42,927 nucleotides of DNA from Lachnospiraceae bacterium. Its GTDB lineage: Bacteria; Bacillota; Clostridia; Lachnospirales; Lachnospiraceae. Positions 3,471 to 40,971 of the stretch are shown here, in pieces. Where the stretch lies: contig JAFVCL010000044.1 of assembly GCA_017479285.1 (NCBI GenBank), forward strand, positions 1 through 42,927. Direction: 5' to 3'. Every line of letters starts with the position of its first letter. Position 1 is the first letter of the stretch. Below the pieces are notes generated by a model that saw only the letters and a list, made by a program, of their open reading frames with translations, had not been told where the DNA came from and made no database searches. A program made the translations under genes and the position numbers.

Positions 3471-3537
3471 AATATTCCCCTTAATCTCTTAAAAATTCCG
3501 GCTCCGGGAGGAGCTTTTAAAATAAAAAAATATCTAT

Positions 3538-4059
3538 TTACACTACATCAATATGGCAGGTTTTCATGGCTGCGAGAGCGGTCTCGTGAGACTCCGGCGT
3601 AACACAGGCGCAAAGGTCTGAGTGTGTAACTATCCTTGTCTCCGGTGCAAACGCCTTTAAAGTAACTTCGTTGCTTATAACACATATTCCGGTACATACA
3701 CCGCAAAAATCAACAAGCTCATATCCGCTGTCCCTTATAAACTCCGCAAGTTCAACGCTTCCAAAGGTGGGCTTGTTGAATATTTTTAAAGTAATACCTT
3801 TATCCTCCGACAGCATCTTAAGTTCCGGAACGATTTCCCATCCGGTAGTATTCTCTATACAGTGCGGAACCGGAAGCTTTTCTCCTTCGAGGGTATCCAT
3901 ATAATTGTCCTTATGCGTATCCCTTGTAAATACCACATCTCCGTCATAGGATTTTATGTATTCCGCAATAGCCGGTACTACCGACTGAGCCTCCGCGGTT
4001 CCAAGTACCCCGGTAACAAAATCATTCTGCATATCCACAACAACAAGTAATTTTTTCAT
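3538..4059 (-). CDS. pncA: Isochorismatase-fold amidase, probable nicotinamidase
   Basis: 173 residues from the start at 4059, which has a perfect CCGGAGGGTG site; an upstream in-frame ATG at 4125 would overlap the previous gene and has no such site. Likely reaction: nicotinamide to nicotinate plus ammonia. The catalytic triad of the family is visible: D9 (VVVDMQNDF), K96 (FNKPTFGS) and C126 (GVCTGICV). D47 and H49 (TRDTHKDNY) and H66 (PVPHC) fit the metal site of nicotinamidases. The neighbours pncB and nadE take nicotinate on to NAD, which supports nicotinamidase over other cysteine hydrolases of the fold. Confidence 0.82.
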   Translation of the reverse strand: MKKLLVVVDMQNDFVTGVLGTAEAQSVVPAIAEYIKSYDGDVVFTRDTHKDNYMDTLEGEKLPVPHCIENTTGWEIVPELKMLSEDKGITLKIFNKPTFGSVELAEFIRDSGYELVDFCGVCTGICVISNEVTLKAFAPETRIVTHSDLCACVTPESHETALAAMKTCHIDVV

Positions 4060-4111
4060 TATGCACCCTCCGGAACTTTTCTTCTTTTCTAACTCTGTTA
4101 TTACGCATCCC

Positions 4112-4576
4112 TCACTGCCTGTCATAATATGCCTTGCCGCCGCTCGGCAGGAAGTATGTCCTTATATATCCATCGGTTGAAACTACAACAAATTCGTTAG
4201 TCTCCTCAAGATAAAAAACATAATCTCCGTCCTCAGCTTCTGTCTTGTGCAGGGCATTCGGATTGTTTACCACTGCGGAGGCGGCTGCCTCGTATTCATC
4301 GGCAGATTCAAAGCCCATCTCGATCCCATGCTTTTCATAATGCTGTTTTTTTAGCTTATTATTTCTGAAGTAGAATCTTGTTTCCTCAGGCTCTGTATCA
4401 TAGCTTTCAGTAATCTCAAGGTTTTCTCTTGCAGCGTCCTGCTTGTCAAGGTAGCTTGCAAGTGAGCCGCATCCGCATAAATTCAGCGACAGTAAACAAA
4501 CAGCTGCCGAATAAAGGCAGCCCTTGATAAATTTTTTAAACCCGGTGTTTTTTTCCATATTGTTCCCGTTACTCAT
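4112..4576 (-). CDS. Lipoprotein with C-terminal BECR-type (RNase toxin-like) domain
   Basis: 154 residues. The N-terminus is basic, then hydrophobic, then LCGC (C36), a lipobox, so the protein is probably lipid-anchored outside the membrane. Residues 65-154 (KKQHYEKHG with H79 and H83, then SADEYEAAASAVVNNPNALHK, NEFVVVSTDGYIRTYF and a final YYDRQ) match, from memory, the C-terminal toxin domains of polymorphic/LXG-type toxins in the barnase-EndoU-colicin E5/D-RelE (BECR) group. Here the domain is not on a large delivery protein. The ATG at 4576 overlaps the end of the CPCC gene by 8 bp (ATGAGTAA), which suggests coupled translation; an ATG at 4558 is an alternative start. It may be an active RNase, an exapted binding domain or a relic. 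Confidence 0.65.
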   Translation of the reverse strand: MSNGNNMEKNTGFKKFIKGCLYSAAVCLLSLNLCGCGSLASYLDKQDAARENLEITESYDTEPEETRFYFRNNKLKKQHYEKHGIEMGFESADEYEAAASAVVNNPNALHKTEAEDGDYVFYLEETNEFVVVSTDGYIRTYFLPSGGKAYYDRQ

Positions 4577-4877
4577 AGTTTCTTTCGATTTCCTCCGGAT
4601 ATGGCGTCCTTACATAGGACTTGTACCTCTCTTCACAGGCTCCGAATTCACGGTAATTCTTCCTTGCCTGAACAAGGGAGACATTATTCGCCCCGGTCTC
4701 ATCGGGGTTTCTTAGCTGAGAAGGATCATTTTCCCAAAAACAGACGGGACAGATCTCGAAGGATGAATCCTCGGGATCAAGCGTCCTGTTTCCGCAGCAG
4801 GGACAAACCGCATACTCCGAATGGTTATCGGAGTATGCAGCCTGCATTATATCTTCATCATTTACATTACTACCCAT
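4569..4877 (-). CDS. CPCC-family cysteine-rich protein
   Basis: 102 residues. It carries C25-P-C27-C28-G and C43-P-V-C46-F-W-E-N-D-P, two cysteine knuckles that fit the CPCC family (Pfam Cys_rich_CPCC in my recollection) and would bind one zinc ion, followed by NNVSLVQARKNYREFGACEERY, the usual conserved tail of that family. No signal peptide is seen, so it is cytoplasmic. A CCGGAGGAAAAGCT site precedes the ATG. The stop codon is inside the start of the lipoprotein/toxin-like gene, so the two are made together. The arrangement suggests an immunity or chaperone partner, but that is inference; the family has no function that I know. Confidence 0.8.
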   Translation of the reverse strand: MGSNVNDEDIMQAAYSDNHSEYAVCPCCGNRTLDPEDSSFEICPVCFWENDPSQLRNPDETGANNVSLVQARKNYREFGACEERYKSYVRTPYPEEIERNYE

Positions 4878-4930
4878 AGCTTTTCCTCCGGCGGTATACG
4901 GCTTTCTCCCGTTCCCTCAGGTCATCAGCA

Positions 4931-6337
4931 TTACTCTTTTCCGTCCCAGCAGTATGTACAGAGCTTCGAGGGGTCTATACCGGTAGCCTCTATCATATCG
5001 TCGAGTCTGTTAAATCTGAGCGAGGTAAACTTAAGCTCCTTACAGATCTCTTCCTCCATTTTTTTGTATTTCTCGGATTCGGGATCGGCGTATTCCTGTA
5101 AAATCTCCTCGGTCACATTCCCGTGCTCAAGCCTCTCGATAACCCTTCTTGCGATAAGATCCATCTCCGAATTCGACCGGGAGAAATTTAAATATTTGCA
5201 TCCGTAAAGAAGCGGCGGGCATGCAGGTCTTATATGAACCTCCTTTGCCCCGTTTTCGTACAGATACTCCGTAGTCTCACGAAGCTGCGTTCCTCTGACG
5301 ATGGAATCGTCTATAAGAAGAATGCTCTTTCCGTTTATGAGCTCATTTACCGCAAGCATCTTCATCTTTGCAATAAGATCTCTCTTGCTCTGAATCGTCG
5401 GCATAAAGGATCTCGGCCAGGTGGGAGTATACTTTATAAACGGTCTCGAGAAGGGAATTCCCGACTCATTGGCGTATCCCACCGCGTGGGCCGTTCCCGA
5501 ATCCGGTACCCCGGCAACGATATCCGGCTTTACATTGTCGCGCTTTGCCATCTTTGCGCCGCAGTTATATCTCATCTGCTCCACATTCAATCCCTCATAA
5601 GTGCTTGCGGGATAACCGTAGTAGACCCAAAGGAATGTACAGATTTTCATGTCTGTACCGGGCTTTGAAAGTGTAATACAATTCTTCTCTGTAAGAACAA
5701 CAATCTCTCCGGGACCGAGTTCCTTGTAATCATGATATCCGAGATTCTTGTACGCGAAATTCTCAAATGAGACACAGAAGCCTTCCGCCTTCTTTCCGAT
5801 CTCGACAGGTGTTCTTCCGAGCTTGTCTCTTGCGGCATATATTCCGGCCTGGTTTAGGAGAAGCAGAGACATCGATCCCTCCACCACCTCCTGTACAAAC
5901 TGTATTCCTTCGATAAGGTTTGCCTTGGTATTTATGAGAGCCGCAACAAGCTCCGTCGCGTTTATCTCCCCCGAACTCATCTCCTGGAAATGAACATGTC
6001 CCTGATCAAAGAGCATCTGGGTAAGTTCCTCTATATTGTTGATCTTTCCTACGGTAGAGATCGCGTAGGTTCCGTGATGCGAACGGATTATGAGAGGCTG
6101 GGCCTCATAGTCGGATATACAGCCGATGCCGTACCATCCGCTCATACCCTGAATCTCTTTCTCAAATTTTGTTCTGAAGGGTGCATTCTCAATATTATGA
6201 ATGGCACGCTCAAAACCGTCCTTACCGTAAAGTGTGATACCGCCCCTCCGCGTTCCCAGATGTGAGTGATAATCTATTCCGAAAAACAGATCAAAAACAC
6301 AGTCATCCTTCGAAGCAACACCAAAAAAACCGCCCAT
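4931..6337 (-). CDS. PurF-like amidophosphoribosyltransferase lacking the catalytic Cys
   Basis: 468 residues. The C-terminal phosphoribosyltransferase half is intact: the PRPP motif LLIDDSIVRGTQ is near residues 341-352 and VAGVPDSGTAHAVGYA lies before it. Cysteines C233, C380, C460 and C463 fall where Bacillus-type PurF holds its 4Fe-4S cluster. The N-terminal Ntn-hydrolase half is unusual: it starts MGGFFG, where true PurF has MCGI/V with the nucleophile cysteine, and the HNGN-like loop reads STVGKINN. Glutamine hydrolysis should therefore be impossible. It follows purC and purB, so it belongs to purine synthesis, perhaps using free ammonia or regulating a second PurF elsewhere. A paralogue of this type is, as I recall, common in Lachnospiraceae. 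Confidence 0.85.
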   Translation of the reverse strand: MGGFFGVASKDDCVFDLFFGIDYHSHLGTRRGGITLYGKDGFERAIHNIENAPFRTKFEKEIQGMSGWYGIGCISDYEAQPLIIRSHHGTYAISTVGKINNIEELTQMLFDQGHVHFQEMSSGEINATELVAALINTKANLIEGIQFVQEVVEGSMSLLLLNQAGIYAARDKLGRTPVEIGKKAEGFCVSFENFAYKNLGYHDYKELGPGEIVVLTEKNCITLSKPGTDMKICTFLWVYYGYPASTYEGLNVEQMRYNCGAKMAKRDNVKPDIVAGVPDSGTAHAVGYANESGIPFSRPFIKYTPTWPRSFMPTIQSKRDLIAKMKMLAVNELINGKSILLIDDSIVRGTQLRETTEYLYENGAKEVHIRPACPPLLYGCKYLNFSRSNSEMDLIARRVIERLEHGNVTEEILQEYADPESEKYKKMEEEICKELKFTSLRFNRLDDMIEATGIDPSKLCTYCWDGKE

Positions 6338-6426
6338 TTTCTTAAGTCCTCTATCTTCCTAAATTCTATCTACCTGAAATCTATCTTCAAACATCTTTCC
6401 GGGCTCTTCAGAACCGGCGCTCCCGG

Positions 6427-7884
6427 TCAGACATTTATCTCCGCCTTCATTCCAAGGTCTTCCCTGTTTGCATCAAGTATCGGTCTTACAACTCCCGAAA
6501 GGAATGCATCTACCTGCTCCGGAGCTCTTCCCACATACTTTGAAAGCTCCATGGTGGATGCTTTTAATTCCTCAAGTGTAAGTCCGAATGCGGGATCGTC
6601 GGCAATCAGCTCAAGAAGGTTATTGTCCATACCCTTCTCCTTGACATTTCTTCCTGCCTCCATGGAGAGCGTCCTTATCTTCTCATGAAGCTCCTGACGG
6701 TTTCCGCCGTTCTTTGCGGCATCCATCATGATATTCTCGGTTGCCATGAACGGAAGCTCGGCAAGCATATGCTTCTCGATAACCTTCGGATATACCTTAA
6801 GTCCGTCGGTTACATTGAGGCACAGATCAAGGATGCCGTCTACGGCAAGGAAACCTTCCGGTATGGAAAGTCTCTTGTTTGCGGAATCGTCAAGAGTTCT
6901 CTCAAACCACTGCGTAGCTGAGGTGATTGCGGGATTGAGCGCATCTATCATAACATATCTGGAGAGCGATGCGATCCTCTCGCTTCTCATGGGATTTCTC
7001 TTATACGCCATGGCGGAAGAACCGATCTGGTTCTTCTCGAAGGGTTCCTCAACCTCCTTTAAGTGCTGGAGAAGTCTTATATCATTGCTCATCTTGTGAG
7101 CGGATGCGGCTATTCCGGCGAGAACATTCGCTGCTCTCGTATCCACCTTTCTCGAGTAGGTCTGTCCGGATACGGGATAGCATTCCTTAAAGCCCATCTT
7201 TGCGGCTATCATCGGGTCGATCTTGTCGATGGTCTCGTGATCTCCGTTAAAGAGCTCGAGGAACGAAGCCTGTGTTCCCGTTGTTCCCTTTGAGCCAAGG
7301 AGCTTCATGGTCGATAAAACATGATCAAGATCCTCCAAGTCAAGGCAGAATTCCTGTAACCAAAGGGTAGCTCTCTTTCCGACTGTCGTGGGCTGCGCGG
7401 GCTGGAAATGGGTAAACGCAAGCGTGGGCTGCTTTTTGTACTCATCCGCAAAATCAGCCAGAGTCTTCATAACATTAAGAAGCTTCTTACGGACAAGCTT
7501 AAGCGCCTCCGTCATAACGATAATATCAGTGTTGTCCCCGACATAACAGCTTGTGGCTCCGAGATGGATGATGCCTGCTGCCTTGGGGCACTGCTGTCCG
7601 TACGCGTATACATGGCTCATAACATCATGACGGACTTCCTTCTCCCTTGCCCTGGCAACATCATAGTTGATGTCCTCGGCATGGCTCTTTAACTCGTCGA
7701 TCATCTCCTGAGTTATTCTCGGCGCTCCGTCTCCATCCTTAAGTCCAAGTTCCATCTCAACCTCGGCGAGAGCTATCCAGAGCTTTCTCCATGTGCGGAA
7801 CTTCATATCCTGTGAAAAAATATACTGCATCTCCCTGCTTGCATAACGCTCAGAAAGGGGGCTTGTGTATACATCTGTAGCCAT
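6427..7884 (-). CDS. purB: Adenylosuccinate lyase
   Basis: 485 residues, the longer clostridial form of the fumarase/aspartase superfamily. It cleaves SAICAR to AICAR and adenylosuccinate to AMP, releasing fumarate both times. The family signature SSAMAYKRNPMRSERI is at residues 289-304, with the catalytic serine in the mobile loop; THFQPAQPTTVGKR near 158-171 holds the catalytic histidine, and TSCYVGDNTD near 111-120 is the first conserved region. GGAAAGAGG lies before the ATG. It is 84 bp downstream of purC and 89 bp upstream of the purF-like gene, so the two steps that make and cleave SAICAR are adjacent. Confidence 0.95.
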   Translation of the reverse strand: MATDVYTSPLSERYASREMQYIFSQDMKFRTWRKLWIALAEVEMELGLKDGDGAPRITQEMIDELKSHAEDINYDVARAREKEVRHDVMSHVYAYGQQCPKAAGIIHLGATSCYVGDNTDIIVMTEALKLVRKKLLNVMKTLADFADEYKKQPTLAFTHFQPAQPTTVGKRATLWLQEFCLDLEDLDHVLSTMKLLGSKGTTGTQASFLELFNGDHETIDKIDPMIAAKMGFKECYPVSGQTYSRKVDTRAANVLAGIAASAHKMSNDIRLLQHLKEVEEPFEKNQIGSSAMAYKRNPMRSERIASLSRYVMIDALNPAITSATQWFERTLDDSANKRLSIPEGFLAVDGILDLCLNVTDGLKVYPKVIEKHMLAELPFMATENIMMDAAKNGGNRQELHEKIRTLSMEAGRNVKEKGMDNNLLELIADDPAFGLTLEELKASTMELSKYVGRAPEQVDAFLSGVVRPILDANREDLGMKAEINV

Positions 7885-7968
7885 TTTGTTTCCTCTTTCC
7901 AGACCATCCTGCGGACGGTCTATGTATTTATACGACAGCTCTTAAGCTCTGCCGTTTTATGTATTTTT

Positions 7969-8838
7969 TTACAGAGTCTTCCCGGTAAGGAGCTCATATC
8001 CCTCATGGTAGATATCGATGGTCTTTTTAACAACATCCTCGGGAAGAGTCCAGTTATGCCCGTCGTGGCTCTTTAACCAGTCTCTTGCAAACTGCTTGTC
8101 GAATGAAGGCTGTGAATGTCCGGGCTCATATCCCTTTGCGGGCCAGAATCTTGAGCTGTCCGGTGTAAGCATCTCATCGCCGAGCACAATATTTCCGTTC
8201 TCATCAAGACCAAATTCAAACTTGGTGTCTGCGATAATGATTCCCTTTGTAAGGGCGTAGTCCGCACATTTTTTGTAAAGTGCTATGGTGTAGTCACGGA
8301 GCTTTGAGGCATATTCCTCTCCCTTTCCGGGGAAACGCTCCTCAAGGTACGCCACGCTCTGCTCGTAGGAGATATTCTCATCATGATAGCCTATCTCAGC
8401 CTTGGTCGAAGGAGTGTAGATGGGCTCGGGAAGCTTGTCGGATTCCTTTAAGCCCTCGGGAAGAGTTATGCCGCAAACAGTGCCGTTTTTCTGGTAGCTT
8501 GCCCAGCCGCTTCCTGTGATATATCCGCGGACAATGCACTCCACCGGCAGCATGGTAAGCTTTCTGCACATCATGCTCCTTCCTTCGAATTTCTCGTTTC
8601 TGAATTCCTCGGGCATATCCTTAACATCCACCGAAACCATATGGTTTGGAATGATATCGCTTGTCATATCAAACCAGAACTTCGACATCTGGGTAAGTAC
8701 CTTTCCCTTGTCGGTCACGGTGTTTCCAAGGATAACATCGAAACAGCTGATACGGTCTGTGGCAACAATGATAAGTGTGTCTCCGTTGTCATAGATCTCT
8801 CTTACCTTGCCTTCTTTGATGGGTTTTACTTCTTTCAT
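7969..8838 (-). CDS. purC: SAICAR synthetase
   Basis: 289 residues. It joins CAIR and aspartate with ATP to give SAICAR. The start (EVKPIKEGKVREIYD) is the standard nucleotide-binding strand of the family; LPVECIVRGYITGSGW at residues 97-112 and the later IIADTKFEFGLDENG are the two PurC signatures. The length places it in the longer class seen in yeast and many Clostridia. A TGGAGGATTCCC site precedes the ATG. The gap to the upstream unknown gene is only 30 bp with no terminator, so it is probably transcribed with the unknown four-gene block. Confidence 0.95.
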   Translation of the reverse strand: MKEVKPIKEGKVREIYDNGDTLIIVATDRISCFDVILGNTVTDKGKVLTQMSKFWFDMTSDIIPNHMVSVDVKDMPEEFRNEKFEGRSMMCRKLTMLPVECIVRGYITGSGWASYQKNGTVCGITLPEGLKESDKLPEPIYTPSTKAEIGYHDENISYEQSVAYLEERFPGKGEEYASKLRDYTIALYKKCADYALTKGIIIADTKFEFGLDENGNIVLGDEMLTPDSSRFWPAKGYEPGHSQPSFDKQFARDWLKSHDGHNWTLPEDVVKKTIDIYHEGYELLTGKTL

Positions 8839-8868
8839 TTTGGGAATCCTCCATAAAAATATATCAGG

Positions 8869-10023
8869 TTAATTGTTTTCCTTACTGTCGAGCAGCTCGA
8901 TTATCTCCCGGGCGTACTCCGGATAAAGTTTTGCGATATCCTCTATCTCCTGCTTGGCTTCCTCTGCAAGCTTCCTGTTATAATCCATCTGCTCGCGTAC
9001 CCGCTGCCTCCGGATAATAAGATCGTGTCTGATCTCCACCATCTCCCTCGGATCAATGAGTGCCTGCACCTGGCAGAGCCATCTGTCGGGATATTTAACT
9101 CTGTGAGCGGAGAGTGCGGACACCAGCTGCTTGCCGAAATATTCACTCTGGGCCTGTGCCTCGGTAAACTGCCTTCTCTCTTCCTTTTCAAGCTGGTATG
9201 CCTGCCAGAGCTTTGACAGCTTTTCCCCATTCTCGACATGATATTTGAGATAAAGAAATTCCAGCAGCTTCCTGTTGTTCACATACCTTATCTTGACCGT
9301 ATTCTGGAGCTGGATAAGCTTGTTCATCTCGTTTTGTATCCGCCCCTGTTCCTTCCCGGCCTCCATATACTTTATCGCGGTTACCGCACAGGCTATCGAG
9401 GCGATCGCCGTCGCGAGAAAATAGCCGATAAAAACCTCCAGCCCTGCAACAAACTGCAGGAATAAAAGTATTACCATACAGAAGATATATGCCGAGATAA
9501 AGATCATCACCATCCCTCTGTAGTTGTTCATATTCCTGTTATTCTCGGTCTTCCGGAACAGCCGCGCCTGTCTCTCCCCGTCAAGCCGTCTTAAATCCTT
9601 CTTTACGGCGACTGCGTATTTTTCCGCCTCGCGTATTTTTTGTATTCCCTCCTCTACCTCATGCTCGCGCTTCTTCAGTGTATAATACTCGATATCCGTC
9701 ATGCGGCTTTTGCGCTCGCGGTATTTTTGCATCTCCGCGGAATATGTGGTAAGCGAGGTGGCAATGCCTGCAAGCTCTGCCTTCTTACCGTCGGGCAGCT
9801 CATCTATCTCATCCACATCCGTCAGATAATCTGTTACAAGCTGGTACTCCCCGGCAAGGAGCTCCACCTCCCTCGAGGACTCCTCCATCTGGTCGAGGCA
9901 GTCCATAAAGTACCGGCTTCTCTCCTGTGGGTCGGAAAGATCTACCTTGTCCCTCCCGGCGATGTCCGGTTCCTTTTCACCGTCTTTTGAAAAAAAAGAA
10001 ATGATCTTTTTAAAAATATTCAT
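8869..10023 (-). CDS. Membrane coiled-coil protein of unknown function
   Basis: 384 residues, not recognised. Residues 35-160 are rich in Glu, Lys, Arg and Leu and probably form a coiled coil. Two membrane segments follow (about 170-190, MVMIFISAYIFCMVILLFLQF, and 194-216), joined by a very short turn. A second long charged helix region runs from 220 to 380. With a hairpin of two membrane passes both arms would be on the same side, most likely the cytoplasm. Its ATG overlaps the stop of the TPR-like gene by 4 bp. It is the last of the four-gene block; it may anchor the other three products to the membrane (inference). Confidence 0.75.
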   Translation of the reverse strand: MNIFKKIISFFSKDGEKEPDIAGRDKVDLSDPQERSRYFMDCLDQMEESSREVELLAGEYQLVTDYLTDVDEIDELPDGKKAELAGIATSLTTYSAEMQKYRERKSRMTDIEYYTLKKREHEVEEGIQKIREAEKYAVAVKKDLRRLDGERQARLFRKTENNRNMNNYRGMVMIFISAYIFCMVILLFLQFVAGLEVFIGYFLATAIASIACAVTAIKYMEAGKEQGRIQNEMNKLIQLQNTVKIRYVNNRKLLEFLYLKYHVENGEKLSKLWQAYQLEKEERRQFTEAQAQSEYFGKQLVSALSAHRVKYPDRWLCQVQALIDPREMVEIRHDLIIRRQRVREQMDYNRKLAEEAKQEIEDIAKLYPEYAREIIELLDSKENN

Positions 10024-10877
10024 ACGCTCACATTTTCTCTGTAGCCATCCTTAAGACCCTTGAGGATCCTGTCGTTTTCGGCATAATACTTATATGCATC
10101 GCCCGAATCCCTCATCTGCCTTCTAAGCTTTAAGGAATGTGTCTCAGCTCTCGATTCCCATTCGGCATTCAGCTTCTCCATGGTCTTCTCAAGCTTTAAT
10201 GTATCTTCATAACCGTCGGTCAGACCCGCGGCAAAGGATATGTATCCGTTCTCATCGAGCCCCATCCTCTTCGCGGCAATAAAGGCAAGATAGTGCTCCC
10301 TCTCTCTGTCGAGCCTGTATGCCTCCTCAAAGCAGTCCGCCGCCCTCTCGTAAAGCATAAGTCCCGTATAGGCCACCCCGAGATTGTGATGTATGGCCGA
10401 GAGCACATTTATGCCCGGAAGTATGGAGGTTCCGTTCTCACTGACATAATTCCATTTTTCTATAAGAGAATGATACCCTCTTACCGCAGAGACATATTTT
10501 TTCTTGCTGACAAGATAGTCTATCTGTCTCTTATGGCGCTCTATTGCCGAAAGTCCCGCGCCCCTCTTTAATATTTTCCTCACGGAATCTATGTAATACA
10601 TATCCTGAAGGCCGGCGTATTCCATGATAAGGCATACAAAGGTACTAAGTGAACCCTGGCGCTGGATTATCGCATACATCTGCTGTGCCAGTTCGGTAAG
10701 CCCGAGTTCCTTATCCACCCACTCCGCAAGATTTCTCGTCATAATGGTCTGGTCGATAAGTACGGCATTCTCCCCCAAAAGATAGCAGAGCTCCTCGATA
10801 CAGTATACCGGTGTTTCAAGTCCGGGTATCATATATGGATTTGTCGCATATTTTCCGATACTGATACTGATCCGCAT
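10020..10877 (-). CDS. TPR-like helical protein of unknown function
   Basis: 285 residues, not recognised as a named family. Residues 115-205 look like tetratricopeptide-type helix pairs: LVSKKKYVSAVRGYHSLIEKW and then HHNLGVAYTGLMLYERAADCFEEAYRLDRE, the second with the usual A/G and small-residue spacing. The first 110 residues (starting MRISISIGKYATNPYMIPG) are a separate part, and the C-terminal 70 are charged helix with LRRQMRDSGDAYKYYAENDRILKG. No signal peptide. The spacing to the ATPase-like gene is 18 bp, and it overlaps the membrane protein gene by 4 bp. A scaffold role is likely from the repeats. Confidence 0.75.
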   Translation of the reverse strand: MRISISIGKYATNPYMIPGLETPVYCIEELCYLLGENAVLIDQTIMTRNLAEWVDKELGLTELAQQMYAIIQRQGSLSTFVCLIMEYAGLQDMYYIDSVRKILKRGAGLSAIERHKRQIDYLVSKKKYVSAVRGYHSLIEKWNYVSENGTSILPGINVLSAIHHNLGVAYTGLMLYERAADCFEEAYRLDREREHYLAFIAAKRMGLDENGYISFAAGLTDGYEDTLKLEKTMEKLNAEWESRAETHSLKLRRQMRDSGDAYKYYAENDRILKGLKDGYRENVSV

Positions 10878-10895
10878 AAAACCAAAAACGCCCGA

Positions 10896-12182
10896 TTAAA
10901 TCGGTATCTCCTCTCTCCAGTTCCTTGTCCCGGGGGATCTGAATGCCCCAAGACCAAGATCCTCTATCTCAACAATAAGTTTTTTTTCACTTTCCATATA
11001 CAGTCTGCATCTCATTCTCGAAAGCTTTCCGGAGAAATCATCGAGGGTTATCCTTGCGATGTGATCCCCTCCCCCGACCAGGGAGCGGATGATGAATTCA
11101 ACATAATCGCCGTCCTGCAGATAAAAATCAAATGTATTCTCCGCGTCATACCAGCTCACGCCGGCGTCCAGCAGCGCAAAGTAAACCTCATCGTTCTGCC
11201 TAAGGATATTCATCCCTATATTGGCAGTCAGTTTATCATTTCCAAGGAATATGTTTTTCTTCTGGACGGATTCCCCCGCAAGACGGTCCAAAAGACCGTA
11301 GCAGGCGCCCTTGCTGTACAGATTGCTTCCCTGGAATACCCTGTACTTTCCGCAGAGATATTTTTTTGACTCGTTCATCCATGAGTCGTCAAAGCCCTCT
11401 CCCTGGAGAAACACGCTTACGGTGCTTTCCGATTCACAGATTTCCCTTGCTATATTAAGAAACGCTTTGTCCTGCTGGATGCTCTCATAGTCCTTGTCGG
11501 TAACATTCGATCTTCCTCCCGCAGACATGGGGAAATGCTTCTCGTCCATATAGACCACGACCGGAACCGTTCCGAAATTGGATTCCATCCTGTAGGAAGT
11601 GATTTCCCCGTTTTCGTATTCAAAGAGCAGACTGCCGTTTCTCCAGAGCTCCTCGGGCATATTTGTCATGAAATGATAATAGCTCTCCATATGGCTCTGG
11701 AAAAAAATCTTTTCCGTCTTAAGCTTAAGCAGGGCGACAGCTTCCTTCAAAACCCCGATATTCTCATAGCTCAGGTTATCGGATGTTAAGAGCACGCCTT
11801 CTATCTTGTCCGAAAAAACAGCGGTGACAAGGGACAGACACCTCTTGATGAAAAGAGCAAGGAGTGATACGGGCTGGTATGCCACATTGTCAACCAGGAC
11901 AGGTGTCCCCTTCCCCGCAAGGGTTAAAAGGTGATCCACCAGTATTCCGCCCTCTTCACCTGAATACCTTAAAGCATCCTCCCCGTAGAACCATTGGTTA
12001 ACACCCTCTCTCTTGCAGAGAGCTGTCGGAATGTTAAATCTCTCCTCGCCCGTAATGAGGGAAACGGTCTCAACACTCTTCCCGTCCTGTGAGTAGCTTA
12101 TCTGACTGTAGTTGTCACCCAGATTGAATCCGATATAAACTTTGTTATTCATGCCGGACATAAAACCGGGCAGCTTGATCAT
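10896..12182 (-). CDS. Hsp70/actin-like ATPase homologue (DUF5716-like)
   Basis: 428 residues. The N-terminus KVYIGFNLGDNYSQISYS (residues 14-31) has the shape of the phosphate-1 loop of the actin/Hsp70 superfamily (normally IGIDLGTTYS). IEGVLLTSDNLS, followed by a helix that carries a locally conserved L-rich stretch, fits the second half of subdomain IA. A family resemblance to DUF5716 is from memory. The catalytic Asp of phosphate-1 is replaced by Asn (F-N-L-G), so hydrolysis may be weak or lost. The C-terminal third (from about 320) is beta-rich (YFALLDAGVSWYDAENTF) and could be a substrate-binding part. AAGGGGAAAAT precedes the ATG; the gap to the giant gene upstream is 9 bp. Confidence 0.7.
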   Translation of the reverse strand: MIKLPGFMSGMNNKVYIGFNLGDNYSQISYSQDGKSVETVSLITGEERFNIPTALCKREGVNQWFYGEDALRYSGEEGGILVDHLLTLAGKGTPVLVDNVAYQPVSLLALFIKRCLSLVTAVFSDKIEGVLLTSDNLSYENIGVLKEAVALLKLKTEKIFFQSHMESYYHFMTNMPEELWRNGSLLFEYENGEITSYRMESNFGTVPVVVYMDEKHFPMSAGGRSNVTDKDYESIQQDKAFLNIAREICESESTVSVFLQGEGFDDSWMNESKKYLCGKYRVFQGSNLYSKGACYGLLDRLAGESVQKKNIFLGNDKLTANIGMNILRQNDEVYFALLDAGVSWYDAENTFDFYLQDGDYVEFIIRSLVGGGDHIARITLDDFSGKLSRMRCRLYMESEKKLIVEIEDLGLGAFRSPGTRNWREEIPI

Positions 12183-12191
12183 ATTTTCCCC

Positions 12192-15100
12192 TTACATCAG
12201 CCTGAACAGTTCACCGTTCATAAATTCACGCCTGTTGTACTCTTCGTAGAGATCGTCAAAGCGTGCATAATCCTTTGTTGTATTGCTGATCAGCATATCA
12301 TTTATCAGCGTATACTTTCCTCCGCTTCCACCGGCTCCGGTATCATTGCAGGATACCTGTCCGTTATCGGAAAGCGAAGCCTCGTTTTCACTCTCCTCGG
12401 TAATGTAGTATTGTAGCTTCTCGCCGAAAAACAGTGTGAAATCCTTGAAGCAGATACCGCCGCAGACCTCACGCATATTTTCTGAGGCATAATCAAAGTT
12501 TTCACTTTCATCACCGGTTATCATGTAATGGATCTTGGCTATCTTTCCCTTTGTAACCTTATAATCGACTATTGTTCTGTCCTCTATCTCTCCGAGAATA
12601 AGCCTGCAGGCTTTCTGCCTCTCTTCACTTCCGAATACCCCCATCTTAAGATACTCTTTGAAGAACCCGAGATAGACCCTGTCATCTACCTCATCCCCAA
12701 GGAATTTTAATACCAGCTCCTCGGACAGCTCGTCCATTTTTCCGGTGTTTTCGGAATAATACTTAAGAAAAGCCAGTTTTGAAGCTACGGGCACTTCATC
12801 ACCCGTTTTGTAAAGATCCTTTATATTCTCGATAACGCATTCGTCACGCACTCCCATTCCGACCAGATATCTGAATGAGCCCTGCGCAAGCACGGCCTTT
12901 GCGATATCGGTTCCGAAATTTTCCTCAAAACACTCTTTTGCAATATGGTTTATCTCCGGCAGATATGCATCCGTGAAGATATGCCTGAGCATGATGCGCC
13001 TGTCGATCACATTCCTCGGAAGACCATATTCCTTTAACGCCTTCCATATCTCTACCATGTCTCTTGAGAGACCGTCATAGTAGTATCCCAGATAATCCGT
13101 TATAAGAGACCCTGCGTTTCCGAGGGCAAAAACATAGATGCCCGCTCCCACAAGCCCTCTGTCATATTCTTCGGAAAACCTTTTATCCCCATCCTTCCCG
13201 GAGGGCTTAAGGATTTTCTCGAGAAATCTCTTAACGCTTGCGACTCTGGCGAAATAAGGTCCGTATTTCGTAAGCCATGCCCTCGCGATATCCTCGTGAC
13301 CGAACTTCAATAAAAGCGGGAAGATAAGTCCCCTCTGGTTGGATGTAAGGGAGTCGGTATCGAGCATTTTCAAGGTTCTCTCAAAGGCTGCGGCATCATC
13401 CTTTATGCTGTAGTGCTCGAGAGCCAGAGCAAGCTTCTGCTGTCTTTCCTCCTTGCTTACAAGCTCCGATTCGGCAAGATTCATGATCCTCAAGATATTC
13501 GCGGAGGTGACGGTTACGGTTGTCTCCCCCGTACCTACGAGGTAAAAATTCAGTCTCTCGTTATCCCATACAAGTTCACTGACTGACGGCAGATAAGCGG
13601 ACACAGCCATCAGCTCCCGTGAATCCGCCTTTACGGATTCGATATACCGGTTGCCGGAGTTATCCTCAAATACGATTATATTGCCGCTTCCGTACACGCT
13701 TATGGCACCGGCTCCGTTTTTAAGCTTATATTCAAAGGGTCTGCTGAAGCCCTTCTGGTAAACATATACCTTTTCGCACTCCTTCTTTTCACAGACCACC
13801 CATCTTGAAAAAATAAGGTCGGCCATTCCGAGTGCCTGCTGTCTGCTGAGCATCGAAGGATCAAGCACCTCCGAATAGATGACCGCAAGATGCCTGCTGA
13901 TGTTTCCCTCTGCGATCTGCGCATTTGCGAAAAACTCCATATTCTGAAGATTGCCTTCATAGAGTTCCCTGTACTGCTCCTTATGCGTGATTATGTAGTA
14001 ATAAAAGTACGCCAGCTGCTCACTTGCAAGGTTATTCTTATACCCAAAATACATGAGCACCACAAGAGGAATGTCCTCCTCCGCCTCGAGATCGAGAGAC
14101 TGTATGAAATACTCAAAAAGCTTTGTCAGCTTTATCTCCTTCTCTATAGCCTTGCTGTACCATGCATTTGCCTTATGATCCGTCCTGTTGTTTATGATAA
14201 GCTGCGAGCATATCTCCTGAAGGATCCGGTTGTCACCGTACTTTTCATAGAGAAGCTCCATGGTATTCAGATATACATATCCCAAGTCTTTACTGCGCTT
14301 GGGCAGCTGAAGTATGTATTCGAGGCATCTTTGGTTTATAACGCCAAGCTTTGCCCCAAAGTGAAGCGTCTGGATAAGAAAATCATCCATCTGCTTTGCT
14401 GTGGAGGGGTTCTCGTTTATGATCTTTACTCCCTCGTAATAGATCACACCGCTGCGTCCTCCCGACTCATACAGGCGTTCAAGCACATCCCATCTCGTAT
14501 ATGTATTGGCATTGTAGGTCGTCGGAAGAGACAGTGTTATTATCGCGATCTGCCAGTCCTCGGGAAGCTTACGGTAGATCGCTTCAATCTTTCCCACAGC
14601 GGTTTTGGTAAATTCCTTGTCCTGCTTTACCATCGAAGCTATAAGCCAATGATATGCATACGCCTCAAGCAGTCTGTGCCCTTTAAGCTTGCCCGCTTTT
14701 TCGTCATGCTCTATCATTTCCGCGGCCTGGTCCACCAGCCAGCTTGCCTCGTTTGCCCGTCCCTCCAGCACAAGGAGCCTTGCCTTGAAAAGTCTCGCAT
14801 AAAGAGCGATTCCCGAAAAAGCTCCCAGCTGTTCCACATTGGCTCCGGTCCTGTCAAACCACTCTTTATCCTCCATAAGTCCGAGCCCATGGTAGATATA
14901 GTCCCTTGTCAGCTTTTCCAGAAGGACGGTCTGGGATCTCCGGGCTTTGCTTACGATATTCTCGCTCCTGCCCCTGACCACGACCGGTATCTCAAGTCTT
15001 GTGAAATTGTTTCTTAAGACTATCTTGCCCTCGCGGCGCCCTCTCGAACATTTTTCCGTATCTATAAAAATCTTTATCGTGCAGACATTCCCGACAAAAT

Positions 15101-15848
15101 CCGCCTCTGTCAGAGTCTCTCTTCTGGTAAGTATAAAATCTCCCTGTATCTCGATATCAATATCGGTATATCCCCATCCGTTGCGGAGTATCTCAAGCTC
15201 TCTCTCCGCAAGCTGCTCGGAAAACTCCACACCTATAAGACCTACCTCAAAAACCTTTTTGTCGTAGTAAAGTTCTACGCCCTTTTTCTTTCCGGTACAG
15301 AGAAGAAATTCCTCAAGGTTCTGGAGATTACCCTTGTTTGCGGAAAGAGCGTAATAGATACCTTTATATTTTTCGTCCGTTCCGCTTAAAATTCCTGGGA
15401 ATTCAGGGGAATAAAACATCTCGGCAGCTTCGTTCCAGCTGCTTCTCGCAAGATTAGCAAAATTGTAAAGATCCCTTATGGGGCCGAGAGAAGAATCAAG
15501 ACTTCCCTGCTCTATTCTGACCACAAAGGGTATCGTGTACTCCCCGTGGTCGCTTATGATCCCGAAATTCCCCCGGACCTCATCTCCCGGCTTGCAAAGA
15601 TCGCCATGAAAGAAATATGTGATCTCGGTTTCCTTTCCGGTTATATCCGGGGTAAGTATCTCCATTCTCATATCCGTGGAAATAACTCTTCCCTCAAAGG
15701 CACTGCCGTCATCGGTAAATACCTTAAAGGTCCCCTCGTAATCGCAATCGGAGGATACACCTATATCCACCTTTGCCACAGAAAACTGAAGCGAACCGGT
15801 TATCTGTATGTAGTTTCCCTCTAAAATCCTGCCGATGATATCGCGCAT
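12192..15848 (-). CDS. Giant beta-sandwich/solenoid protein (DUF5717-like)
   Basis: 1218 residues, the largest uncharacterised gene here. Residues 1-115 and about 195-300 look like two Ig/BACON-like beta-sandwich domains (alternating strands ending in YTIPFVVRIEQG and LEIPVVVRGRS). From about 310 to 700 the sequence is helical and solenoid-like (HRLLEAYAYHWLIASM, repeated LYxKAxE-like helices). A beta-rich insert is near 720-800 (ISVYGSGNIIVFEDNSGNRY), and the C-terminal third is again helical. No signal peptide or membrane segment was seen, so it is probably cytoplasmic. It is first in the block, behind its own promoter (15905-15933). The resemblance to DUF5717 is from memory; no function is known to me. 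Confidence 0.75.
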   Translation of the reverse strand: MRDIIGRILEGNYIQITGSLQFSVAKVDIGVSSDCDYEGTFKVFTDDGSAFEGRVISTDMRMEILTPDITGKETEITYFFHGDLCKPGDEVRGNFGIISDHGEYTIPFVVRIEQGSLDSSLGPIRDLYNFANLARSSWNEAAEMFYSPEFPGILSGTDEKYKGIYYALSANKGNLQNLEEFLLCTGKKKGVELYYDKKVFEVGLIGVEFSEQLAERELEILRNGWGYTDIDIEIQGDFILTRRETLTEADFVGNVCTIKIFIDTEKCSRGRREGKIVLRNNFTRLEIPVVVRGRSENIVSKARRSQTVLLEKLTRDYIYHGLGLMEDKEWFDRTGANVEQLGAFSGIALYARLFKARLLVLEGRANEASWLVDQAAEMIEHDEKAGKLKGHRLLEAYAYHWLIASMVKQDKEFTKTAVGKIEAIYRKLPEDWQIAIITLSLPTTYNANTYTRWDVLERLYESGGRSGVIYYEGVKIINENPSTAKQMDDFLIQTLHFGAKLGVINQRCLEYILQLPKRSKDLGYVYLNTMELLYEKYGDNRILQEICSQLIINNRTDHKANAWYSKAIEKEIKLTKLFEYFIQSLDLEAEEDIPLVVLMYFGYKNNLASEQLAYFYYYIITHKEQYRELYEGNLQNMEFFANAQIAEGNISRHLAVIYSEVLDPSMLSRQQALGMADLIFSRWVVCEKKECEKVYVYQKGFSRPFEYKLKNGAGAISVYGSGNIIVFEDNSGNRYIESVKADSRELMAVSAYLPSVSELVWDNERLNFYLVGTGETTVTVTSANILRIMNLAESELVSKEERQQKLALALEHYSIKDDAAAFERTLKMLDTDSLTSNQRGLIFPLLLKFGHEDIARAWLTKYGPYFARVASVKRFLEKILKPSGKDGDKRFSEEYDRGLVGAGIYVFALGNAGSLITDYLGYYYDGLSRDMVEIWKALKEYGLPRNVIDRRIMLRHIFTDAYLPEINHIAKECFEENFGTDIAKAVLAQGSFRYLVGMGVRDECVIENIKDLYKTGDEVPVASKLAFLKYYSENTGKMDELSEELVLKFLGDEVDDRVYLGFFKEYLKMGVFGSEERQKACRLILGEIEDRTIVDYKVTKGKIAKIHYMITGDESENFDYASENMREVCGGICFKDFTLFFGEKLQYYITEESENEASLSDNGQVSCNDTGAGGSGGKYTLINDMLISNTTKDYARFDDLYEEYNRREFMNGELFRLM

Positions 15849-15904: not shown

Positions 15905-15933
15905 ATTATAGCAAAATAAAAGAGTACAGGCAA
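15905..15933 (-). promoter_or_regulatory. Promoter of the unknown four-gene block
   Basis: On the minus strand: -35 TTGCCT (15928-15933), 17-bp spacer, extended -10 TGCTATAAT (TATAAT at 15905-15910). It overlaps the 3' arm and T-tract of the ilvE terminator. The leader of about 50 nt contains a small GTGCG/CGCAC hairpin ahead of the start at 15848, and the ribosome binding site is weak. Confidence 0.75.
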
Positions 15934-20737: not shown

Positions 20738-22492
20738 TCAGGATTTCTGCAATCTGATAAGACTGAGAGCGTGCTTAACCCTTACCGTAAGAAGTTCAGG
20801 CACAAAGGGCTTCCTTATAAAATCGAGAGCACCCATCGCGAAACCCTTGACTTCTGTCTGATCGTCAAGCCTGTCCGTCAGGAAGATGACCGGTATCCTA
20901 GATATCCTTCCGCCCTTGGCAATAAGCCTCTGTCTTACCTCAAATCCGTCCATATCTCCCAGTCCGATATCTATAAGGAGCAGCGCGGGATCCTTCTCCT
21001 CAAGGTATTTCAGGAGCTCCTCCCCGGATTTCAGACCGACAGTGCTTATTCCCTCTCTCTTCAAAATATGCTCCGCGATAAGGATATTGCTCTTTTCGTC
21101 ATCCACCACAACTACGGTATTTAAATCCTCCTCGCCGGCCTTTACATTCGAATCTCCTCCGATCCTGTCATACTCGATCTCAAGCTCGGTTATTTCGTAA
21201 TAGCTGCTCTTTCTCCAGGCGAGCTTCATACGGTTTAAAACTCTCTCTATATGCTCCGGATTCATCTCCGGAAGCAGCAAAAAGAACTGATCCATCCCCA
21301 CCCTCACCATCACATCGCTGTTGCGAAGGGTTGTCTGGATGATCTCCCGGAAGGCGGTTGCTATTTTTTCGCCGATGTCCTTCTGAAGCTTATCCTCCTT
21401 TATATTGATCGTAAAAAGCACCTTGTACGCCGATATATCATATCTGTCAAGATATCTCATCATATAACGGTATACATTTCCAAATGCCTCCCGCCCCATC
21501 CACATTACGCTCTGGGAAACATTCCTCTCCTCAAGCAGCTTTGAAAGCGTCTTAAGGTCAACGATGGTCGTATCTTCCTCCTCCCGGATGCCTAAATCCT
21601 CTTTGTAGAGAACATATCCGTGCTTTCCCTTATCCTTCGCGGCGTACAGTGATTTGTCCGCAAGACTGAAAAGCTCATCGAGCTGTGTGCCGTGCTTCGG
21701 GACCGAAACCGCGCCCACGGAGGCTCCGAGTGGTATCCGCATATCTCCGCCGACCAGCTCCTCACACGCCTTTACAATCCCTATATTGAGGGCCGCGGTA
21801 AACTTATCGATATCGCTCTCTCTTTGCATATTGCGCACAAATACAAGAAACTCATCTCCCCCGATACGCCCGCAGATACTCCCCTCCGTGAGATTTCTCG
21901 AGAGTATCCCCGAAAAGGCTTCCAGCACGCGGTCTCCCATCTCGTGACCGTATATATCATTAACCAGCTTAAAGGAATCCAGATCTATTATGCAAAGACT
22001 TCCCGACTGTTTCTGGCACACGGGAACAAGCATCTCGTGGATGCTCTCCTTGTTGTAAAATCCCGTAAGATAATCATGGCTTGCCTTCTCCTCGATGCTG
22101 ATCATCTTTTTTCTTGAATTAATAACATTTGATACTCTCTGGACAAATACTCCCGGGTCGAAGGGCTTATGGATAAAGTCGGAAACTCCCATCTGGAAGC
22201 CTCTCATCTCACTGCCCCTGTCATCATCCGCGGTAAGGAAAATAACGGGAGTCGGCTTTAAGGATTCCTTTTCCTCGAACCTGCGCATGTTTACAAGCGT
22301 ATCAAAGCCGTCCATATTCGGCATACGGATATCGAGCAGAACAAGATCCGGCATATCATGCTCTTCGATATACTCAAGAAAGCTCTTCCCGGATCTCAGC
22401 GCAGTGACCCTCATGCCGTTTTTGCTCAGTATATTTCCCGCTATTTTAAGATTCTCCGTATCGTCATCTACAACTATTACCCAATCTGCCAT
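20738..22492 (-). CDS. REC-GGDEF-degenerate GGDEF-REC response regulator
   Basis: 584 residues. It starts with a receiver domain (phospho-Asp D54 in VLLDIRMP, K near 109), then a GGDEF domain with an intact GGDEF motif at 211-215 (RIGGDEF), so it can make cyclic di-GMP. A second, worn GGDEF-like domain spans about 310-435, where the motif reads GMDQF (399-403) and is likely inactive. A second receiver domain ends the protein (D508 in LLLIDIG). No RxxD inhibitory site is obvious before the active GGDEF. The start is 2 bp after the stop of the hybrid kinase, so the two probably form a phosphorelay to a c-di-GMP output. AAAGGGGAT precedes the ATG. Confidence 0.9.
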
Positions 22493-22494
22493 AT

Positions 22495-25400
22495 TTATAT
22501 CCCCTTTATTTTCTCTGTGATTTCCTCATATTTATCCATAAAACGACTGTGATTAAGGCGGATATACTCCCCGTCGGAAGCATTTGCCGCAGCCTCGAGC
22601 TTCATCGCCTGTTCGGAAAGTTCCCCCGCGCCGATCGTCCTCAGCGTTCCCTTGAGCGCATGTATTACAATACGGTATTCCCTGTAATCTTCCCTTTCCA
22701 GCGACTTTTTCATGCTCTCCGCCTTGCCGGAATACTCTTTTGCAAAAAGTCCGATAAGTTCTTTGTACAGAGCTATATCCCCTCCGCAATAATCAATCCC
22801 TGTGTCGGCATCCAGACCGATATCCGCAAGTTTCTCCCTTAATCCCTCATCCATACCCGCGGCATCGTCTCCCGGATAACCATCGGTTACCGGTTCGAAT
22901 TCAAGTATCTCTCCGGTATCATCCGTAACCGTTTTGTTTTCATCCGCCCCGGTTACAGTGGATACTTCCTTTCTTTCAGGCTTTTTGTCCGTATCTCTCT
23001 CCTGCCAGATTGCAAAGCCCTTGGGAAGATACCTGAAGATCTTTTCCTCAAGTTTATCGACTTCTATGGGCTTTGACAGGTAATCGTCAAAGCCGGCTCC
23101 AATATAAAACTCCTTTGACCCGGAGGCTGCGTTCGCAGTAAGGGCTATCATCACGGTATCGTTTCCCGCAAGGTTCTCCTCCTTTATCCTCTCAAGAGTT
23201 TCTATTCCGTCCATTACAGGCATCATGTGGTCCAGGAACACTATATGGTAAAAGCATTCCTTCATCTTCTTTACCGCCTCCTCACCGGAGGAAGCCGTAT
23301 CCGGAAGGATTCCGTTGAGCTTAAGCAGATTTTTTATGACAAGAAGATTGGTTTCGTTGTCATCCACAACAAGGATGCTTGCCTTGGGCGCAAAAATATG
23401 CCTTTCATTCGAACCGTCCGTGACCTTTCCGGATACTCTGTCCGTGTACCTTCCCATTGGATGAGGATTGATGATCCTCTGGTCTATGCAGAATGAAAAA
23501 ACCGAGCCCTTTCCGTATACGCTCTCCACATTCAGCTTAGAGCCCATCATCTCAAGAAGTCCTGTGACGATTGACATGCCGAGGCCCGTTCCTTCGATAT
23601 TACGGTTTCTCTTTTCCTCAAGCCGCTCAAAGGACTCGAAAAGCTTACCCATATCCTCCTTGCGGATTCCGATACCCGTATCGGATACCTTTACCTCGAG
23701 AGTTACATTTCCGTTATCTCTGTCAAGCTCCTTTATAGACAGTATCACCTTACCCTTTTCGGTGTATTTGACCGCGTTGGTAAGCAGATTCATTATAACC
23801 TGGGATATCCTTATATCATCGCCCATAAGAACGGTGGGAATCTTCTCGTCTATTTCGGTTATCAGCTCAAGACCTTTTGAGTGCGCCCTTTCCCCAATGG
23901 AATTCACAAGATTATTGACCAGCGAGGCCACATCATATTTTACGGAGATGATCTCCATCTTGCCGTCCTCCATCTTGGAGAAATCAAGTATGCTGTTTAT
24001 TATGGATAAAAGATTCTTGCCGGCCGCCCGGATATTCTCGGCGTAGTTTCGTATACTGTCATCCGCGGATTCCCTGAGGATCATCTCATTCATACCGAGC
24101 ACGGCGTTTATGGGCGTTCGTATCTCATGGGACATCTGCGCGAGGAAACGGCTCTTGGCCTTTCCTCCCGCGATAGCTTCATCGGCTGCGGCCTGCATTT
24201 TTGCATTGGTCTCATCCTGCCACCGTATCATATTTGAAAGCAGCCGGTAAACAAGGATGATACAGGAAAGAAAGGCGATAAGGCAGACTGTCGCATAGGC
24301 AAAAACCCTGCCGTATATAAGCCAAAGCTTTGAAGTGACATATACCGAAAAATTGGATTCCCTGTTTTTCGAAGCCACAAGTATCCTCAGCGAGCCGTCA
24401 TAATCCCGTATGACCTTGGGCGCGGAAAGATCGTTTCGCACCTCGAGGTACGGAAGCTCCGATACATTTGTCTCGTGATCCATGGACATCTGGTAGCTGC
24501 CGTAGGGGTGATTTATAATATGTCCCTCTGGATCCACAAGGAAGGCATACCCGTCATCCGAATAGCTTCCTCCGAGTATGTCCACCAGCTTGTCCATAAA
24601 GAAATCTATACCGAAATTACCGAGGAATTCACCTGTCCTGTAATCATAAACCTTCTCCGCAAAAGTCACACAATAACCGCCGGTCTGCTCATCATAATAC
24701 GGAGCGGAGATTATCCAGTTATCCTCGGAGTTCATAAGGTCGACATACCAGCTTCTCTCCTCCACATGCCAGTCGGGGTCATCAGGCTCCCAGCCGTTGT
24801 TCATATAAACCGTATGCCTTCTGTTGGGGTTGGTCATATAAGTGACAGAGATCTCCGGATACTGGACCGTTATCCTGTTAAGGAATGTGATCGTCCTGTC
24901 ATAATCATCAAGCATCTCCGGATTCGTGGAGATTATGCTGGCAAACATATCCAGAATACTCTTTTGGGTGTTTATCCACTCGGAAAGCCTGTATTCGTAT
25001 TCCTCGGCCTGCTTTTGCATATACACATTTCCCCATTTGTATGTAGCGGAAATATTTGTATAAAGACTGACAAGCATAACAAGCACCATGAAGATAACAA
25101 TGACCTTCTGGAGCCTTCTGTCCATACCGCCGCTCGCGGCCCTGCTTCCTTTCGCATTCCTGTTTTTTTCCGTGCGGACAATACTGGAATACGAAATTAT
25201 CTGCTTTATCATTTCGGAGAGCTTTTCTCCCGAGGAGCGAATGCGTGCCATCTCCTCCCGCCATTCATCCTCGCCCTCGATCCCCTCCTTCACGGAGCTG
25301 TCAAGAATCCTTTGCAGCGGCTCGCTGAGTTCATCCGAAATACCGCTTAAAAAGGCCTCCTTTGACGCAAGCACATTCTCGGCCTTCTTCTGGTTTTTTA

Positions 25401-26286: not shown

Positions 26287-26355
26287 GTCGGCTCCGTAAA
26301 AATACTTAATAAATGCTCTGTCCCGGAGAAACTGACCCGCCGGACACAAAATATC

Positions 26356-40863: not shown

Positions 40864-40943
40864 AAAAATCTCCTTTAACAGCCGTTGTACTACAGTCCGC
40901 CCCTTTAATACTATAAAAATAATGAGCATCAGCCTATAAATGT

Positions 40944-40971
40944 ATTGTACGCCACGGAAGAATTTTGTCAA
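40944..40971 (-). promoter_or_regulatory. Promoter of the tocopherol cyclase family gene
   Basis: On the minus strand: -35 TTGACA (40966-40971), 16-bp spacer, -10 TACAAT (40944-40949). It is back-to-back with the tRNA-Leu promoter; the -35 hexamers are 4 bp apart. Confidence 0.75.

Follow-up and report, generated by a model that had tools for sequence, protein, structure and literature searches.

A putatively reduced Hsp70 operon in Lachnospiraceae and its expanded form in sister families

The four genes and their distribution

D5717, D5716, TPR and MCC are four adjacent open reading frames on the minus strand of a 42,927-nucleotide stretch of DNA (termed the window) from a Lachnospiraceae bacterium (assembly GCA_017479285.1, contig JAFVCL010000044.1). 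D5717 (positions 12192–15848) encodes 1218 amino acids (aa), D5716 (10896–12182) 428 aa, TPR (10020–10877) 285 aa and MCC (8869–10023) 384 aa. D5717 and D5716 are 9 bp apart, D5716 and TPR are 18 bp apart, and TPR and MCC overlap by 4 bp. This arrangement was described in a previous reading of the DNA made without database searches (the sequence-only reading), and the open reading frame coordinates confirm it. The family names DUF5717 and DUF5716, given in that reading as resemblances, are correct by Pfam; the window proteins pass the gathering cut-offs of PF18984/PF18983 and PF18980. These entries carry no function, and the Hsp70 origin, co-inheritance and expanded operon described below are added here. 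An NCBIfam scan of the four window proteins gave nothing useful.

PF18980 (DUF5716_C) is present in 145 of 150 genomes of the window's family and PF18984 (DUF5717) in 147 of 150, nearly always as a single copy. Because both are near-universal in the sampled Lachnospiraceae genomes, the genes in the window are real. The best 80 of 513 confirmed related stretches are mostly labelled Lachnospiraceae or Acetatifactor. In a sample of the phylum, PF18980 is found in 4 of 299 genomes including that of the window, all four Lachnospiraceae. In a sample of the class, PF18984 is found in 11 of 291 genomes; ten are in the window's family (the window genome included) and the eleventh match, outside the order, is under the curated cut-off. 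A sample of the order shows PF18984 in 145 of 295 genomes, with matches in 15 families besides that of the window. Within these samples the system is thus a feature of a single order, and in the window's family it has come close to fixation. One genome of the family, G389 (98% complete), has no DUF5716, DUF5717 or MCC match and has two DnaK-like loci; this is a possible natural loss of the system.

Among 60 loci from across the family, D5717 was found in 60, D5716 in 57, TPR in 60 and MCC in 26. The gap is 60 bp or less between D5717 and D5716 in 53/57 loci and between D5716 and TPR in 56/57. These mostly short gaps bear out the proposal that the genes form one unit. The expectation that all four are kept together in relatives holds for D5717, D5716 and TPR, whereas MCC is optional; by these counts the conserved core is one of three genes, not four. 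It should be noted that the gene counts are lower bounds, because antisense open reading frames and fusions hide D5716 or TPR. The open reading frame caller was a greedy longest-frame picker, an antisense frame probably hid one of the two genes in L076, L084, L118, L124, L138 and L152 among others, and where D5716 and TPR are fused one label conceals the other.

The D5717 protein matches DUF5717_N at residues 1–881 (E-value = 5.8e-224) and the DUF5717 C-terminal domain at residues 896–1215 (E-value = 4.8e-67). Its strand pattern, judged by eye, suggests that the N-terminal part is beta-rich (Ig/FNIII/ASH-like), and the part beyond it is probably helical. Comparison with solved structures gave a best E-value of 0.19 for the full profile and 0.025 for the N-terminal profile; both are weak and were judged to be unrelated. 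The counterpart in sister families is a pair of genes of ~395 and ~900 aa, or one gene of ~1330 aa. D5717 is a putative scaffold.

The TPR sequence taken singly is under the Pfam cut-off (TPR_1, 21.1 vs 27.8 bits). With the family profile, designed TPR proteins are matched at E-values down to 2.8e-54, and a relative in the sister genome G482 exceeds the Pfam cut-off. By its profile, the 285 aa protein is a divergent TPR protein, as the sequence-only reading had it. A single open reading frame combines D5716 and TPR at four loci, and the two profiles match separate parts of it. A quick tree of the fusions (73 rows) needs at least 3 changes, e.g. three fusions. The fused frames are good evidence for a direct partnership of D5716 and TPR.

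MCC had been described as a membrane protein with long coiled coils. There is a strongly hydrophobic stretch at residues 168–220 (positions 9364–9522, minus strand), with a maximum of 2.85 on the Kyte-Doolittle scale in a 19-residue window, and this is probably a hairpin of two transmembrane helices. Long flanking segments are rich in charged residues and by eye are putative coiled coils, forming long helices. A Pfam scan gave nothing meaningful for MCC, and a profile comparison with solved structures gave nothing useful (best E-value 0.0025). Thus a membrane protein is indicated, but not a standing member of the unit, as MCC was not found at 34 of the 60 family loci. In 28 of those 34 the whole genome was searched, and MCC was found nowhere. 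All 8 of the sister-family genomes searched have MCC, in several cases away from the operon. MCC is probably ancestral and dispensable, because all eight sister genomes have it and many genomes of the family do not.

The relationship of D5716 to Hsp70 and the expanded operon

D5716 matches PF18980 with an E-value of 9.9e-79. A profile of its family compared with the PDB finds the DnaK chains 2v7y (E-value = 6.4e-8) and 4rtf (E-value = 7.9e-8), values that are for the whole sequence; the match is carried by the nucleotide-binding domain segment (i-E = 1.3e-5). At E-values up to 1 the sole actin-fold chains are those of DnaK and BiP/GRP78, and there is no MreB, FtsA or actin chain. D5716 had been called an Hsp70/actin-like ATPase homologue. 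The profile supports the Hsp70 part of this description but not a general likeness to actin, and by these matches D5716 is Hsp70-derived and not FtsA/MreB-like.

An expanded operon, absent from the sequence-only reading, is found in sister families of the order. Twenty regions were fetched, of which 17 are sister-family D5717 loci (the rest are G495 twice and G899), and 14 of the 17 are extended; the sister loci were picked among listed matches, not at random. The gene order is D5717, Hsp70-1 (554–581 aa), X (a GrpE fusion of 565–644 aa, 279 aa in G450), Hsp70-2 (494–542 aa), Hsp70-3 (539–572 aa), Hsp70-4/vWA (690–719 aa) and TPR (about 387 aa). Hsp70 genes adjoin D5717 in 15 of the 17 loci. 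Among the 14 extended loci, Hsp70-1, X, Hsp70-2 and Hsp70-3 are each present in 13, a full-length Hsp70-4 in 11, TPR in 12 and MCC, at the locus, in 2; the entire run from D5717 to TPR is present in 11. Two regions (L216 and L225) end before Hsp70-4/TPR, and in G450 both Hsp70-4 and TPR are broken into two open reading frames.

The operon of G482 shows the domains. By Pfam, all four paralogues contain HSP70, Hsp70-4 ends in a vWA domain and X in a GrpE domain. DUF5716_C matches Hsp70-2 (E-value = 1.5e-26) and Hsp70-3 (E-value = 7.5e-10). Of 12 X proteins, 11 have a GrpE match at E-values up to 1 (best 1.4e-13); the X protein of G546 has no Pfam match at E-values up to 0.1.

Alignment of profiles with hhalign places Hsp70-2 nearest to D5716 and Hsp70-3 next. 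The alignment with Hsp70-2 is full length (E-value = 4e-54, or 4e-42 without G450), as is that with Hsp70-3 (E-value = 4e-23), while those with DnaK (3e-8), Hsp70-1 (1e-6) and Hsp70-4 (2e-5) cover about 180–190 columns. The HSP70 match of Hsp70-3 spans the substrate-binding domain (SBD), and the full-length alignment with it thus supports an SBD-beta domain in D5716. The SBD-beta-like region is at residues about 312–412 (approximate; positions 10947–11249, minus strand) and ends in a D-x-G-x-G motif, of which D408, G410 and G412 are invariant in 37 rows. The 428 aa sequence stops just past this motif, leaving no room for the helical lid (SBD-alpha).

A tree from which G450 and the long D5716 rows were left out, with 5 of 13 D5716 rows and 12 of 13 Hsp70-2 rows included, has a branch of 100/100 support that sets D5716 together with Hsp70-2 apart from the other sequences. 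Trees that place D5716 with Hsp70-1, Hsp70-4 or DnaK are rejected (p-AU = 9.7e-5, 1.3e-4 and 1.3e-3). The grouping of D5716 with Hsp70-2, and the ancestry that it indicates, are well supported by both trees and profiles.

The Hsp70 phosphate-1 aspartate position aligns with Asn20 of the window D5716 (codon at positions 12123–12125, minus strand). The sequence-only reading had noticed an Asn where this Asp is expected, and it is real. Among 131 homologues the column has D in 110, E in 10, N in 9 (the window protein among them) and other residues in 2. Further site counts were made on 13 of the 135 D5716 rows obtained, after a mis-picked DnaK row (L245) and the partial Hsp70-4 row of G450 had been dropped, here as in the trees. 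In the phosphate-1 motif D-L-G-T-T, the T-T pair is kept in 0/13 D5716 rows and the D in 10/13. A Lys70-type residue and a complete GGGT are found in 0/13 D5716 and 0/13 Hsp70-2 rows, vs 13/13 Hsp70-1, 13/13 Hsp70-3, 11/11 Hsp70-4 and 5/5 DnaK rows. Hsp70-1, Hsp70-3 and Hsp70-4 retain all 13 checked site positions in every row, and Hsp70-2 does not. A Glu166 is conserved in 119/131 D5716 homologues; it is only a possible counterpart of the Hsp70 NEPT Glu, which aligns to a different column than it does by eye. Judged by these residues the nucleotide site of D5716 is degenerate, and the protein appears to be catalytically dead. As Hsp70-2 lacks the intact motifs and its three neighbours have them, a dead Hsp70 on this evidence already sat in an operon with live-looking Hsp70s.

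Operon-type Hsp70-1, Hsp70-3 and Hsp70-4 are not among the matches listed (E-values to about 1e-9) for 13 genomes of the window's family, whereas all three are among those listed for 15 sister genomes. X is present in 15/15 sister genomes, and in 14 family genomes the only hit is one of 22 bits, a 218 aa frame adjoining dnaK, which is probably an ordinary GrpE. Two family genomes (G344 and G447) have an extra Hsp70 of about 570–640 aa, with HSP70 scores far above those of the operon types.

The gene order is collinear in both lineages: D5717-[Hsp70-1-X]-Hsp70-2-[Hsp70-3-Hsp70-4]-TPR-MCC. A valS gene follows MCC in the sister genomes G450 and G473 (72.7% and 76.8% identity to the family copies) and follows MCC or TPR in 15/60 family loci; a third candidate, in G488, is not valS (21% identity). 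A divergently oriented aminotransferase lies upstream in 7/14 sister regions and 21/60 family loci, with 45%–57% identity between these putative counterparts. The G450 locus looks like an intermediate: its Hsp70-2 joins D5716 at 100/100, its X is cut down to 279 aa and it includes MCC. Because of this locus, because the large form is found in several families, and because MCC and D5717 are common to both forms, we infer that the large operon gave rise to the small one, i.e. by loss rather than gain.

Two other loci display related genes. In G495, a genome of the window's family that also carries the reduced operon (L227), a 499 aa Hsp70-like gene is situated directly before chorismate synthase (L228, positions 9180–10679). 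In G899, of the same class and not listed as the same order, a cluster (L229, positions 3520–12154) has an Hsp70-vWA protein of 749 aa, two Hsp70 matches (375 and 554 aa) and a 1043 aa protein without a Pfam match. Because such a cluster is found in G899, the Hsp70-vWA arrangement is probably more widespread, extending beyond this order.

Transcription signals and flanking genes

A promoter-like site, TTGCCT-17-TATAAT, is at positions 15905–15933 on the minus strand. It has 10/12 matches and a TG before the -10 element, and it ends 56 bp 5′ of the first ATG, that of D5717. The site had been termed a clear promoter. It is present, but its clarity is not borne out, since the region shows 16 promoter-like sites compared with 14.3 +/- 3.3 in shuffled sequences, i.e. 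no enrichment. As such sites are no commoner than in shuffles, it is a plausible, unproven promoter of the operon. The absence of a terminator inside the unit was read correctly. There is no strong one, only three weak minus-strand matches at 13155, 13333 and 10904, the last at the end of D5716, and the total of 7 terminator-like matches in the region is below the shuffled mean of 9.6.

An open reading frame of 289 aa, whose translation we take to be purC, begins 30 bp beyond MCC; the labels purC, purB, ilvE and dhfr are our own reading of the translations. The lead-in to purine genes does not extend to relatives as a general link, as purC-like genes are found in 12/60 and purB-like genes in 20/60 regions. 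Linkage to purine or ABC-transporter genes was rejected as a functional context, since the neighbours vary by lineage.

Elsewhere in the window, positions 39712–40971 encode a 419 aa protein with a tocopherol-cyclase domain match just above the cut-off (E-value = 1.3e-7), unusual in a gut anaerobe. Positions 20738–26349 encode a 1284 aa dCache hybrid histidine kinase with receiver and Hpt domains and, directly after it, a 584 aa protein with two receiver and two GGDEF matches.

A proposed role and its alternatives

The operon of the window may be a reduced Lachnospiraceae form of an order-specific Hsp70 machine, in which the dead Hsp70, D5716, would serve as a peptide-binding scaffold; we hold this to be somewhat likelier than its negation. 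That the machine shed its ATPases and exchange factor while the dead Hsp70 became a clade-wide structural scaffold, with intact and intermediate forms surviving in sister families, has in our estimate an even chance. The ancestral operon would have had a D5717 scaffold, three intact-motif Hsp70s (one with vWA), a degenerate Hsp70-2, a GrpE-domain protein, TPR and a membrane protein. The window's family would have lost the intact-motif Hsp70s and the GrpE protein, keeping D5717, D5716, TPR and, in some lineages, MCC.

D5716 would no longer run an ATP cycle, and its SBD-beta-like domain may act as a constitutive clamp for peptides or client proteins, or as a structural hub. A clamp or hub appears most likely because, with the motor Hsp70s and exchange protein gone, the conserved remainder would need no ATP cycle, which suggests that D5716 is now a scaffold rather than a motor. 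It may bind the TPR protein and sit on the D5717 scaffold, and where MCC is present this would tether the complex to the membrane. The near-fixation in the family favours a housekeeping role, perhaps in assembling or holding a complex of the envelope or another one, and not a role in stress or defence.

Of known systems, that of Hsp70/DnaK and GrpE is the nearest. D5716 is related to DnaK, and end-to-end to Hsp70 paralogues, and the sister operons have a GrpE-domain protein together with three intact-motif Hsp70s. Unlike that system, D5716 lacks space for a lid and the catalytic residues, the window operon has no GrpE protein, and the sister operon holds several different Hsp70s. A published description of this operon was not found among titles and abstract starts in the literature searched. 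In the word searches DUF5717 was not mentioned, and DUF5716 appeared only in an apparently unrelated cancer-informatics paper. A survey of duplicated bacterial DnaKs (PMC11019930) describes, in its available text, an operon that pairs a second DnaK with an exchange factor; words beginning with Clostridi-, Lachnospir- or Willebrand are absent from the main text.

Several findings weigh against the proposed scaffold and its origin by loss. The SBD-beta segment of D5716 alone is not significant against DnaK (i-E = 46 and 12), though it is rightly placed. The tree that joins D5716 to Hsp70-3 is marginal and not quite rejected (p-AU = 0.055), and long branches are involved in these trees. The phosphate-1 acid (D or E) is retained in 120/131 D5716 homologues, and two further motifs keep their glycines (12/13 rows for one, 13/13 for the other), so that D5716 may still bind a nucleotide. 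At two of the 17 sister loci no Hsp70 gene adjoins D5717, namely L217 (G631, the one neighbourhood read in family f126) and L219 (G478, family f139); their Hsp70 partners may be elsewhere or lost. No J-domain match was found in the seven genes from D5717 to TPR of the single operon scanned fully. The fusion tree is also compatible with a single gain and two losses. Since most sampled loci have no MCC, a membrane tether cannot be the general mechanism.

The strongest rival is that D5716 uses the DnaK of the cell, as an Hsp110-like regulator or co-chaperone that borrows its ATP cycle from DnaK/DnaJ/GrpE encoded elsewhere. In eukaryotes Hsp110 proteins are dead Hsp70 relatives that act on live Hsp70s, a precedent that fits, and a DnaK-level match is present in all 13 family genomes searched (partial in the window's own genome). 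Against this, no linkage or fusion of dnaK to D5716 is seen in the loci read (no search for it was made elsewhere), and Hsp70-2 in the expanded operon has its own intact-motif partners; we regard this rival as rather unlikely. The retained phosphate-1 acid and Glu166, together with the glycine preceding the GAC/GAA motif (13/13 D5716 rows), would also suit a switch that binds ATP or another nucleotide by an altered site. The loss of the Lys70 equivalent and of the complete GGGT in all 13 rows, and the Asn of the window protein itself, make such a switch decidedly unlikely.

A role in conflict or defence is improbable. The GAP1-N2 GTPase-centric conflict systems, built on GTPases, include an HSP70-GrpE-FNIII/TPR theme, which in the available text of PMC7159879 has HSP70, GrpE, a second Hsp70 minus some domains and a beta-repeat protein fused to TPR. 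These component types match. Here, unlike there, the genes are near-universal in one family with a stable order, and no effector was recognised. Defence systems usually show a patchy spread, unlike these near-universal and mostly single-copy genes. The four window proteins have no PADLOC match at E-values up to 1, and no GTPase or GAP1 match was found in these four or in the 10 scanned sister proteins, of which nine belong to the operon, in scans that were not aimed at GAP1.

Hsp70 and actin have a common fold, and some members have a hydrophobic, probably membrane-bound partner, which would be in keeping with a filament protein of the actin/FtsA/MreB type in a cytoskeletal or division machine. 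The actin-fold structure matches at E-values up to 1 are to DnaK and BiP/GRP78 only and D5716 groups with Hsp70-2, and this identity, which we consider highly improbable, was rejected.

The proposal of a reduced Hsp70 machine bears on a gene set that is near-universal in the sampled genomes of a major gut family. Its relationship to the four-Hsp70/GrpE/vWA operon gives a concrete biochemical hypothesis and grounds for asking whether the genes are essential. It also supplies a natural series of intact, intermediate and reduced forms in which the part played by a dead Hsp70 can be studied. If the proposal is true, it would be an instructive case of evolution from enzyme to scaffold, in which an inert paralogue was conserved while the ATPases and exchange factor were lost.

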